Below, piece by piece: positions 23,297 to 27,398 of a stretch of 64,000 nucleotides of DNA. Positions within the stretch are counted from its first letter, which is position 1. Each line of letters starts with the position of its first letter. The notes under the pieces were generated by a model. It was not told the origin of the DNA, did no database searches, and worked only from the letters and a program-made list of their open reading frames with translations. A program made the translations under genes and the position numbers. This stretch comes from Gimesia chilikensis (GTDB lineage: Bacteria > Planctomycetota > Planctomycetia > Planctomycetales > Planctomycetaceae): the NCBI RefSeq assembly GCF_007744075.1, contig NZ_CP036266.1, positions 62,001 to 126,000 of the forward strand. Reading direction: 5' to 3'.

Positions 23297-23443
23297 TCAC
23301 TCCTCGATAATCTTCACCAGAATACGCTCCCGCCGGCGGCCGTCAAACTCATAATAAAAAATATGTTCCCAGGGTCCCAGGTGGAGCTGGCCGTCGGTGA
23401 TGGAGACGGACGCGGTGATGTGCATCGCGTTCCCCAGGCACAT
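23297..23443 (-). pseudogene. yjbQ remnant A (internal deletion)
   Basis: Only 48 codons remain. [13 protein letters not shown] is joined directly to [20 protein letters not shown] and the normal C terminus ILVKIIEE. The roughly 60 residues between them, which hold the NDNESG and HHKRQIMG motifs in the intact copy, are missing. There is no N-terminal half. Remnant A cannot fold as a YjbQ protein, but it still ends beside a small gene that uses its tail as a ribosome site. Its left edge touches the inverted repeat at 23438. Confidence 0.8.
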
Positions 23444-23455
23444 TGCATTACACAA
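23438..23455 (+). repeat. Inverted repeat, left copy
   Basis: GCACATTGCATTACACAA. It pairs with 27250-27267 (17/18). A degenerate copy (GCACATTGCATTACGCCA) lies at 24271-24288 at the start of yjbQ remnant B. Confidence 0.65.
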
Positions 23456-23526
23456 TGACTTTCTAGATTAAACAAGAAAACAGGAACTCCAGAATGTCTG
23501 ACAATCATCTTCCAAAAGGGATTAAA

Positions 23527-23949
23527 TTAGACTTCTCTTAACAATCGGGTCATATCCATACGGTTGAAGAATGTAACGGAATTCAAGACAAATGAAATAT
23601 CTGAACCTTCAAGCCAAGAATTCCAGACTGTCTGTGCAGAACTGTATCCAGCGATAACGACGCATGTATATTCTTCATATCCAAAAATGGGGCCAAGTTG
23701 AACTAAATGATCTCCTTCATAAAGGCGTACTTCCAAGAGTGGACATCGTGTTTCTCCGACTGACCCGTGTCCTCTGAATATAAAAAAAGTATCTCTAGTA
23801 CTTCCATCATTCGAGATACCGAAAGATCCAGACAGACCGGTATCATCGATATACGGCTTGTACCCTTGATTTACAGCATCTTGAAACAACGATTCGAGAT
23901 CCTTCTCGATTGGCAAGCTTTCTGATTCTGACCAAAATCGTTTCTCCAT
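23527..23949 (-). CDS. Hypothetical protein (140 aa) between yjbQ remnants
   Basis: This 140-aa soluble protein begins MEKRFWSESESLPIEKDLES and shows mixed beta/alpha composition with many aromatic residues (TFFIFRGHGSVGE, IFGYEEYTCVVIAG). I do not recognise it. The ATG at 23949 is preceded by GGGGAG, formed by the last codons of yjbQ remnant B. Its AT content is higher than that of neighbouring genes, which suggests transfer. By size, position and setting it could be an immunity or effector-related gene, which is unproven. Confidence 0.55.
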   Translation of the reverse strand: MEKRFWSESESLPIEKDLESLFQDAVNQGYKPYIDDTGLSGSFGISNDGSTRDTFFIFRGHGSVGETRCPLLEVRLYEGDHLVQLGPIFGYEEYTCVVIAGYSSAQTVWNSWLEGSDISFVLNSVTFFNRMDMTRLLREV

Positions 23950-23952
23950 AGC

Positions 23953-24276
23953 TCACTCCCCAATAATCTTCACCAGAATCCGCTTCCGTCGGCGGCCGTC
24001 GAACTCGTAATAAAAAATGTGTTCCCAGGGTCCCAGGTGGAGCTGGCCGTCGGTGATGGCGACGACGACTTCGCGGCCCATGATCTGGCGTTTGTGGTGG
24101 GCGTCGGCGTTGTCTTCGCCGGTCTGGTTGTGTAGATAGCCGCCGGAATTGGGGTCGCCGCCTGGATTGAAGGGGGCCAGCTGTTCCAGCCAGCGATCGT
24201 AGTCTTCATGCAGGCCTGATTCGTTATCGTTGATGAAGACGGACGCGGTGATGTGCATGGCGTTCCCCAGGCACAT
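23953..24276 (-). pseudogene. yjbQ remnant B (C-terminal two thirds)
   Basis: This open frame of 107 codons corresponds to the intact copy from [13 protein letters not shown] to the end (KIIGE). The N-terminal third (MKSLTRELW to about GLCLV) is missing. The frame begins at an ATG inside the sequence ATGCAATGTGCC shared with remnant A and with the inverted repeat. Metal-site residues such as HHKRQIMG are present. It is 90% or more similar to the intact copy at 24334-24768. Loss of the first strand-helix unit makes function unlikely. Confidence 0.8.
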
Positions 24277-24333
24277 TGCATTACGCCATCTCTTTCATGA
24301 CAGAGGGTGTCACGGAACCGGGAGGCTACCATG

Positions 24334-25631: not shown

Positions 25632-26127
25632 AGTCAGTTGTTAATTTGTTCTAGGAAACAAGGGATATTTTTAAATCTAACTGTGTAATGAGCATAAATA
25701 ACCCCTACTACAAGGTATTGGGGGACTAAAAGCCTACCTGCATCGCTTAAAAAAGTATTCAACATGAGTGGCATAGGGATTCCTATTTTTTTAGCCTGAA
25801 GTCTTCTTTGATTTCATATATGGGAACACTATTTAAACCAACATGCAAACAAGATCGGCCTTTTGATTCGAGAATTCCTTATCCTGAAAATCCTTTACAC
25901 AATTGCGCAAAACGATTCACAACGCATACAGGACAGGCCGCTAGACACACAACACCACCGAGGATTGCACAGATGGACCCGTGACGCGTTTTAACCTTGT
26001 GAGATGACCAAGAGACAACGCGAGGTGCAGTACAGGGGCGAGGCCGCGTCTGTGTTTGACTTACGGACTTACTCGATGTCTGGTGATTAGCGACTATAGG
26101 TCTTCGCCTTAACCGATTTGTTCTTTG
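25632..26127. other. AT-rich intergenic stretch in mobile region
   Basis: These roughly 500 bp lie between the recombinase and a convergent orphan gene. They contain no long open frame. The first 250 bp are AT-rich. The second part (about 25950-26110) is more GC-rich, with a run of short reading frames, and looks like decayed coding DNA. A TTACACAATTGCGCAA sequence near 25900 recalls part of the inverted repeat. No terminator with a T-run was found. Confidence 0.4.
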
Positions 26128-26667
26128 TTATTTTTTTCTGCGACCGCGAGAGGCCATCTCCTCCGTAACGATATCTACGTTTGCTATTGTTGAAAAGACG
26201 AGCGGAAACTTGAGCAACAGTTGGTCCGATTTCTTAGTGATGGCATCTTTTATGACTCCGGTCCACAAGTCATTGGGTAGATTGTCAGCCAAATATGCGT
26301 CCTCAGCTTTGTGGAGTGCTTCATCGCAGTTGCCCTCGCTGATGCCTGCTTGATAACGGAGATCGCTATGTTCTTCGGGAGGAATGTATCGGGGAGGGTA
26401 TTCGAGGATATGGGACCAAACGAGACTGTCGATTACTGCCACAATGTCGCGAGGGTCAGCGTCAATGTCGTGAATGTACTTTCCTGTTTCGTTATGAACA
26501 GCAGGCTCGTCTTGGCCACACCAAATAACCTGGTCTTCACTGACGAGGTCATACAACCGCTGTTGCTTTAACGATGTTTTGGGGTCATCTGTGTATGTGC
26601 CATGAGAAAGTTCGATCGGACCACAAAATGTTCGTAGGTCGTATCCTTGAAGAGTCGACACTCGCAC
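26128..26667 (-). CDS. Hypothetical protein (179 aa) in mobile region
   Basis: This 179-aa soluble protein starts at a GTG (26667) with GGAGG 6 nt upstream, which decides the start. It is acidic in the middle (DIDADPRDIVAVIDSLV) and ends in a basic tail RGRRKK. There is no recognised domain and no signal peptide. Its well-placed ribosome site argues that it is real. It sits between the recombinase and the recombinase stump and is probably cargo of the element. Confidence 0.5.
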   Translation of the reverse strand: MRVSTLQGYDLRTFCGPIELSHGTYTDDPKTSLKQQRLYDLVSEDQVIWCGQDEPAVHNETGKYIHDIDADPRDIVAVIDSLVWSHILEYPPRYIPPEEHSDLRYQAGISEGNCDEALHKAEDAYLADNLPNDLWTGVIKDAITKKSDQLLLKFPLVFSTIANVDIVTEEMASRGRRKK

Positions 26668-26732
26668 TCGAATCCTCCGTGAGATTTTAATTCAAAACAC
26701 GCGGCGTTGGTGGCTTCACGTGCATCGAATTA

Positions 26733-26828
26733 TTATGCTTTTTTTTTGCGTTTAACCACCACGCCTTGCAATTCGTTCAGCCAATCGGACACGGGAAGAC
26801 CATAGTCGAGTACTAGATGAAATGAAGG
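26733..26828 (-). pseudogene. C-terminal remnant of an unknown gene
   Basis: On the minus strand an open frame closes with a protein-like tail (LDYGLPVSDWLNELQGVVV) and a basic end KRKKKA before TAA at 26733-26735. Upstream it runs into the antisense of the recombinase stump and has no start of its own. The composition is more protein-like than random, so I treat it as the cut-off end of a gene, with low certainty. Confidence 0.25.
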
Positions 26829-27277
26829 ATGTTCTAAGTAAGAGAGATAAGATTCTTGATTTAATCACTAAGAGTTTAATTACTGATTCGCAAGCCGAAC
26901 AAAAACTATTAGATTTGAATGAACTTGAAGAAGAATTAAAACAACGAGCAGATCAGTTAGACATTCAAATAGGAAATCATCCAACAAAAGAAGAACTAAA
27001 AAGACTATCGCAATCCGCGGCACAACAATTTCGAAAGAGGGTAAGTGCTAAGGCAGTGGTAGCAAGAAGAAGTAAGAAGGGGATGACGTGGCAGGACAAA
27101 CGGGAGCTTGTTAAACATGCGTTTGACGGTGATAGTTTAGACGGTCGACCTCATGGAGTTTATATCCACGTTATCGATGGCCAACAAAAAAATCGCAGAA
27201 AGCGTTGGAAAGTTATTCTGCATGGCCAACCAATGATCGAGGGCGATAGTTGTGTAACGCAATGTGCTTCGGGTTGA
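26822..27277 (+). pseudogene. C-terminal stump of a large serine recombinase
   Basis: The 151 codons resemble the tail of large serine recombinases. A helical coiled-coil-like part (LLDLNELEEELKQRADQLD) is followed by MTWQDKRELVKHAFDG and a final strand region IHVIDGQQKNRRKRWKVILHG. This corresponds to the segment after the zinc ribbon. The catalytic Ser domain and zinc ribbon are absent. The first codon follows a TAG directly. The frame runs through the right inverted repeat and ends as CVTQCASG just outside it. It is a broken gene, probably of the enzyme that once moved this DNA. Confidence 0.55.
27250..27267 (-). repeat. Inverted repeat, right copy
   Basis: On the minus strand it reads GCACATTGCGTTACACAA, one mismatch from the left copy. 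The recombinase stump reads through it on the plus strand and stops 7 nt beyond. On the minus strand it sits exactly where yjbQ remnant D stops resembling the intact gene. Confidence 0.65.
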
Positions 27278-27398
27278 CCAGGCACAGGCCGTCCTGGACG
27301 CCGCTTTCTGTGACCAGTTGTTCGACGTTTTTATGGATTGAAACGATCTGCCGACGGTGGGGGATTTCCATCCAGAGTTCGCGGGTCAGTGATTTCAT
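27268..27398 (-). pseudogene. yjbQ remnant D (N-terminal third)
   Basis: The frame from ATG 27398 encodes MKSLTRELWMEIPHRRQIVS and continues to GLCLVNP. It is clearly homologous to the first 45 residues of the intact copy, then passes into the inverted repeat and unrelated sequence and stops at 27213. It supplies exactly the part missing from remnants A and B. The simplest reading is that D and A or B were one gene before the 3.8-kb insertion or rearrangement. Confidence 0.8.

Follow-up and report, generated by a model that had tools for sequence, protein, structure and literature searches.

Genomic islands that insert into genes usually follow one rule, in which the replacement for the lost gene end lies inside attP, the attachment site of the island (PMC10111431; PMC4383910, Islander; PMC5704250, integrative and mobilizable elements). 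Integrase islands of the restoring kind, whose target is a tRNA, tmRNA or protein gene, break it and bring with them what keeps its function, the gene end in attP fusing with the part left in the host. The element described here lies in a window of 64,000 nucleotides of the Gimesia chilikensis genome (contig NZ_CP036266.1, positions 62,001 to 126,000; positions below are those of the window) and interrupts yjbQ, a gene of the YjbQ/UPF0047 family (Pfam and NCBIfam matches), for whose product thiamin phosphate synthase activity has been reported (PMC3091646). The element is a large serine recombinase (LSR) genomic island that works like a restoring island, but by means of a whole second gene: its attP supplies no functional gene end, the host yjbQ remains in two pieces, and the element holds a complete gene of its own, separate from that of the host. 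Probably, it is the decayed member of an LSR family whose attB, the attachment site in the host, is formed by the conserved NAMHI codons of yjbQ, an insert that both splits yjbQ and brings a complete replacement gene.

A short core shared by the two attachment sites is a defining mark of LSR islands. For serine integrases this core measures 2-8 bp, and all insertions of 29 serine-integrase integrative and conjugative elements (ICEs) disrupt their target gene (PMC4701971). These ICEs and the window element are alike in having a large serine recombinase, an internal site in a protein gene and the short shared core; they differ in that the ICEs disrupt their target and no carried copy is mentioned in the accessible text of that paper. 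For helper-embedded phage-inducible chromosomal islands (PICIs), a 'backup intact copy' of the gene near the integration site has been suggested to replace the interrupted one (PMC10111431), and in this intact backup lies the likeness to our locus. They differ in that phage late genes captured by satellites are concerned, not a replacement in attP, and no altered att site is described in the text available. A first-pass annotation of this DNA, made from the sequence alone, knew of no described element that brings its own copy of the target gene. This was too wide a statement, as target restoration is usual for islands and a backup copy had been suggested for PICIs. In the literature that we searched (largely without subscription papers, and partly as accessible sections) we found no yjbQ island, and no complete separate replacement gene on an LSR island. 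Engineered cleave-and-rescue gene drives are selfish constructs that break a gene and carry a recoded working copy of it that is immune to attack; they are designed, eukaryotic and nuclease-based, whereas the window element is natural, bacterial and recombinase-based, and its recoding is suggested by sequence only.

The split yjbQ and the recombinase at its junction

Read along yjbQ, that is, on the minus strand, the locus consists of D, an attP half, an LSR remnant, a 179-amino-acid open reading frame (ORF), a small serine recombinase, an intact yjbQ, a second attP half, B, a 140-amino-acid ORF, and A with an attP half of its own (Table 1). D continues into unrelated codons and stops, and B is without a 5′ part. 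We compared the window's own genome (G000, 8.29 Mb) with other genomes (further G numbers) and their loci (L numbers). D and B are the halves of one host gene, because G009, a genome of the same genus, has a continuous yjbQ across both stretches: L044 1-9996 corresponds to window 37260-27262 (96.2% identity), L044 9972-10295 to window 24275-23952 (95.4%), and the two matches overlap by 25 bases. B clusters with the genes of G009, G005 and G001 (support of 99/99) in a tree built from the C-terminal parts, and the carried gene of G010 is also found there; most of this tree is unresolved, with 14 of its 24 inner branches open. The insert between B and D measures 3,011 bp from one central dinucleotide to the other. 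A fusion of the host part with an element-borne gene end into a working gene was looked for in the window and does not occur.

The remnants A, B and D, the intact copy between them and an inverted repeat with 17 of 18 matching positions (23438-23455 and 27250-27267) are all where the first-pass annotation had placed them, and the empty site with one continuous yjbQ, which it had proposed to seek in relatives, was found in G009, while the gene of G005 is whole as well. Its joining of D, A and B into one gene held for D and B. A belongs to an older scar that is also present in G005 (L037 4503-4668, aligned over its whole length), and since G005 shares this scar and yet keeps yjbQ uninterrupted, A lies outside the D/B event, and the insertion behind A predates the insertion behind D and B. 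For the same reason A was rejected as the left border of the present insert, and the extent of 3.8 kb assigned to the repeat-bracketed segment had to be shortened to that from B to D, although the positions of the repeat were right. What had been called a recombinase stump is indeed a remnant, which we identify as the C-terminal third of an LSR with two internal stops, adjoining D; the N-terminal part was not found at the window locus.

A complete LSR (563 amino acids) adjoins the N-terminal yjbQ piece at the same site in G010, where the island is of about 31 kb. With PF00239 (Resolvase) and PF13408 (zinc ribbon) both over the cut-off, it has the domains and the length of about 500-600 amino acids that mark an LSR, of which the window retains the C-terminal remnant. 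Relatives of the LSR at E 1e-40 or better were found in 9 of 397 genomes of the class, and adjoin a split yjbQ in five of these nine (G000, G010, G240, G042 and G384); no yjbQ piece was found near the LSR of the remaining four (G326, G120, G115 and G399). A scan of one genome per species (84,980 species) yielded 76 LSR loci. Six of them (L074-L079) were inspected, and five lie at a split yjbQ: those of G443, a metagenome-assembled genome (MAG) of Planctomycetota; G444, Desulfopila aestuarii, of the phylum Thermodesulfobacteriota; G445, a Desulfobacterales MAG of which the C-terminal side alone is seen; G446, a proteobacterial MAG of the same class group as G444; and G447, an Olavius symbiont. 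At the sixth, L078, no yjbQ was seen at the LSR locus. In total, ten LSR loci, five from the class and five from the species scan, split yjbQ at one site, and together with the empty sites of G009 and G005 this makes the insertion site-specific. Within the class of G444 (257 genomes), relatives of its LSR at E 1e-60 were confined to G444 and G446 themselves. Phages and plasmids as carriers, tried with the G446 LSR alone, were rejected (0 matches at E 1e-40 in 50,697 phage and 72,556 plasmid records), and the same LSR had no match in viral_contigs.

In N-terminal pieces the host codons end at the AA in the Asn codon of NAMHI, from where element sequence follows, and C-terminal pieces are the mirror image of this junction. 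The two element sequences form a near-palindrome centred on the AA, with an uncertainty of one base for G444. Over the 22 positions beside the crossover, the palindrome has 18 matches between B and D and 19 between A and D in the window, 18 in G010, 12 in G240, 12 in G443, 16 in G444 and 16 in G446, with shuffled means of 7.3-8.2; p is at its floor of 5e-5 for five of the seven pairs, and weak for the other two (0.03 in G240 and 0.01 in G443). As far as the sequences tell, the inverted repeat of 18 bp is best interpreted as both halves of the near-palindromic attP of the LSR after integration. Differing attP and attB, a short shared core and a near-palindromic attP were indeed all found, G240 and G443 being the weak cases. 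The sequence of the attP half is quite different in G444 and G446, yet is placed identically; as other sequence stands there at the same position by the LSR, we rejected the repeat as transposon ends. The exact half-repeat occurs in the 8.29-Mb genome at these two places only. Searches of the whole genome with up to two mismatches gave 14 matches, one of them B's own copy, versus 13 for a reversed-pattern control, and the looser matches are therefore background. The repeat with other cargo, a further check proposed at the outset, was found at the same locus in G010 and G240, but not at other loci of the window's genome.

The carried gene and competing explanations

A full yjbQ accompanies the insert at six of the ten LSR loci (G000, G010, G240, G443, G444 and G446), in two layouts. 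In the first (G000, G240 and G443), the carried gene lies at attL, 45, 51 and 24 bp, respectively, from the outer edge of the attP half, to which a length of 24 bases is assigned, and far from the LSR; in the second (G444 and G446), it lies immediately upstream of the LSR. About 1.0 kb separates the carried gene of G010 from the attL-side half, and contains a GIY-YIG-like ORF just over the Pfam cut-off. Related small serine recombinases (35%) stand back to back with the carried yjbQ in G000 and G240, genomes of two families; none was recognised by sequence in the islands of G010 or G443. Differences between carried and other yjbQ genes fall mostly on third codon positions (14, 8 and 57 at positions 1, 2 and 3 between the window copy and G009), a codon pattern which shows that the carried yjbQ is kept by purifying selection. 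Carrying a spare of the broken gene looks like a real strategy, judging from relatives in at least two phyla that do likewise. The idea of a self-repairing insertion in the first-pass annotation thus survives in part: a complete yjbQ stands in for the broken one, as indicated by the empty site of G009, the LSR relatives and the six loci, but repair of the host gene does not take place, as it stays split.

In the mechanism that we propose, the LSR would join attP to attB and so break yjbQ, after which the carried gene would supply YjbQ. Were attB intact on a circle that also holds attP, the two could recombine, and for this reason an alteration of the carried att stretch is expected; less certainly, the carried gene may be altered around the left attB half and so be a poor substrate for the LSR. 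Later, a deletion between the direct repeats formed by D and the carried gene would remove the island and leave an intact yjbQ followed by a C-terminal scar. Intact yjbQ with a C-terminal scar is the state of most scarred relatives, and such a deletion would explain the scarred genomes that have no N-terminal fragment.

In the strongest competitor, the island moves without the gene; only after the insertion did homologous recombination, or a duplication of host DNA, provide the intact copy, which selection then preserved. Exchange between the copies does occur: the remnant of G037 groups with that genome's own gene (85/94), as does the remnant of G002 (95/91), and carried and host genes often resemble each other in their C-terminal parts (90% in G443). 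The carried genes of the two phyla also fall with their own kind in a protein tree of 30 rows, where the six need five label changes, at least two of them forced by the starred branches; repeated acquisition or replacement by recombination would either of them yield five label changes. We nevertheless consider repair after insertion unlikely, because random repair would not put the copy at fixed positions of the element (24-51 bp from attL in three cases, directly upstream of the LSR in two); moreover, in genomes of two families its divergently placed neighbour is a homologous small recombinase.

Very unlikely, in our estimate, is a role of the island as a switch, in which yjbQ is broken by insertion and restored by excision, and the internal yjbQ is incidental cargo. 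Serine-recombinase elements act in this way at comK (PMC4701971) and gerE (PMC5595907), and elements without an internal copy exist (G042). However, 6 of the 10 hold a full coding copy of exactly the gene that is disrupted, and the window LSR, being a remnant, allows no excision by itself, yet the internal yjbQ is intact. Local rearrangement by tandem yjbQ duplications and deletions without a mobile element, to which the series of several partial copies found here, and also in relatives such as G002, might point, is scarcely credible: the empty site has exact junctions, 12 of the 16 genomes examined in the genus share the junction sequence, and relatives of the LSR occupy this codon in another phylum too.

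An island that both splits yjbQ and carries its replacement remains our preferred reading, and several observations weigh against it. Whole-genome searches revealed no full yjbQ in G042, a single contig, or in G384, G445 and G447, which are fragmented assemblies. The N-terminal piece of G444 is on a separate contig, so that the insert is not seen whole. The gene is dispensable, as G004 has just a decayed N-terminal piece and G042 a split gene without a copy, and serine-integrase elements that simply disrupt their target are common (PMC4701971). The remaining points concern the possible recoding.

The att stretch of the carried gene

When each carried copy was compared with its own split host gene in the six genomes, the positions identical were 61 of 102 in the left att half (53, 53, 65, 65, 59 and 65% in G000, G010, G240, G443, G444 and G446, respectively); codons 25-36 agreed at 146 of 216 positions and codons 1-24 at 328 of 432. 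The right att half, which codes for the invariant NAMHI, is retained (75-94%), and the largest difference is in codons 25-42, which include the left attB half. The left half is below codons 1-24 (p 0.002); against recoding, it is not significantly below codons 25-36 (p 0.21), for which reason we put the recoding claim more weakly, and in G240 it is no lower than codons 1-24.

As a control, ten uninterrupted genes were compared with one another (45 pairs), giving identities of 0.812 for codons 1-24, 0.841 for codons 25-36, 0.715 for the left half and 0.870 for the C-terminal part; the left half is thus the most variable stretch even among uninterrupted genes, which again speaks against recoding. 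For the same four stretches, the three proven carried copies (G000, G010 and G240) gave 0.750, 0.677, 0.606 and 0.837 against the ten genes (30 pairs). The intact genes of G002, G003, G012 and G037 were left out of the control, as they are carried-like but were picked partly by their att sequence, and several of the ten 'host' genes adjoin scars and may be former carried copies. On these comparisons, the left half varies anyway, and the excess divergence in carried copies spans codons 25-42.

The att stretches of the two carried copies in G000 and G010 agree at 85%, versus 64-76% with nine uninterrupted genes; in the C-terminal part they also agree at 85%, and resemble each other no more than they resemble the uninterrupted genes (78-92%). 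This fits an altered block that is retained while its flanks exchange with host genes. A mosaic appearance, host-like only in places and with an odd stretch around codons 25-48, is seen in the genes of G010, G012 and G443. The carried gene is possibly recoded to be a poor attB. An alteration would give no lasting immunity, since G005 has scar A and yet an attB-like gene, a further point on the opposing side; the version carried at its older insertion was either not altered or later replaced. Tentatively, and with some doubt, we see here a natural 'break and rescue', in which an LSR island knocks out a conserved gene of its host and provides a version that is proof against recombination, so that the cell comes to depend on the island gene and the host yjbQ line is replaced repeatedly.

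Scars, neighbouring features and meaning of the element

An attP-half scar lies near yjbQ in 12 of the 16 genomes of the genus examined (G000-G014 and G016, a sample that leaves out G015), the exceptions being G004, G006, G008 and G009; it is also present in G037 and G240, and absent from G019 and G020. All 20 matches in the gene sense have at most 6 mismatches in 29 positions, while the reversed pattern gave 0 matches in 295,813 bases, and the other strand gave one, the right attP half of the window. The pattern was derived from these very loci, and the count describes rather than tests. Only G000, G010 and G013 of the 12 scarred genomes have an N-terminal yjbQ fragment. In G025, from another family of the class, an intact yjbQ and a C-terminal fragment lie about 1 kb apart, the fragment downstream (L039 3896-4015 and 4990-5409), and no similar attP half was recognised.

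Table 1. Parts of the yjbQ locus, in order along the gene (window positions)
Feature	Position	Strand	Evidence or remark
D, 5′ part of split host yjbQ, codons 1-41	27276..27398	-	Alignment to uninterrupted yjbQ of G009 and G005
Central dinucleotide, right junction (TT on +, AA in gene)	27274..27275		Position read from sequence; crossover point inferred
Right attP half, contains right arm of 18-bp inverted repeat	27250..27273		Near-palindrome with left half, 18/22
LSR C-terminal remnant	26822..27277, homology from 26803	+	45% identity to G010 LSR residues 367-562 of 563; two stops
Orphan ORF, 179 amino acids	26128..26667	-	
Small serine recombinase, 232 amino acids	24933..25631	+	Resolvase domain; divergent from carried yjbQ, 164 bp between
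Intact carried yjbQ, 144 amino acids	24334..24768	-	Full-length UPF0047 and YjbQ matches
Left attP half, 45 bp from carried-gene stop codon	24265..24288		Scar pattern, 3/29 mismatches; palindrome with right half
Central dinucleotide, left junction (TT on +)	24263..24264		
B, 3′ part of split host yjbQ	23953..24262	-	95-97% identity to G009 and G005 genes
Orphan ORF, 140 amino acids, between both scars, outside present insert	23527..23949	-	
attP half of older insertion, contains left arm of 18-bp inverted repeat	23432..23455		Scar pattern, 1/29 mismatches
A, C-terminal yjbQ scar of older insertion, internally deleted	23297..23429	-	Same scar in G005, L037 4503-4668

Neither of the two orphan ORFs has a match in Pfam, NCBIfam or PADLOC. 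We rejected IS607 as the identity of the small serine recombinase, for which the curated NCBIfam IS607 model scored 36.9 bits against a cut-off of 110. G042 has a second copy of its small serine recombinase, 93% identical, elsewhere in the genome (L151 8309-9037). A promoter and terminator scan near the carried yjbQ of the window gave one match each, and shuffles gave 1.1 and 0.8. Two complete islands at yjbQ hold type I restriction genes: that of G010 has restriction, specificity and methyltransferase subunits (L032 2776-11161), and that of G240 restriction and specificity subunits (L061 15001-19979). Next to the locus, a repeat protein of 541 amino acids (window 27451-29076), by eye similar to tetratricopeptide repeats, is 92-94% identical in G005 and G009; elsewhere in the genus the corresponding place gave weak, multiple or no matches.

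Another gene, for a ComM-like Mg-chelatase, is split in all three genomes searched, with parts about 12 to 131 kb apart (L150 8869-10604 in G004:C77; G009:C10:13656-14537 and 81488-81859; G000:C1:7852202-7852996 and 7983583-7984227), and no full second copy was found. A 60% relative of the small serine recombinase in the window adjoins the C-terminal part of the ComM-like gene in G004. The split ComM-like gene is perhaps another island hotspot, without a spare gene.

If the 'break and rescue' reading of the yjbQ element is true, the occurrence of one layout in each of two phyla would imply repeated evolution of this solution to a difficulty that serine recombinases face: with so short a shared core, attP has no room for a usable gene end. 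More generally, the element would show how LSR islands can use central, conserved positions of genes at little cost, through a whole extra gene rather than by restoring the gene at the junction. Programs that detect islands by att-borne identity, or by plain gene disruption, would overlook elements of this type, and islands that replace their own target could lie behind some gene-tree conflicts in ordinary genes. The element would then be a natural parallel to engineered recoded rescue.

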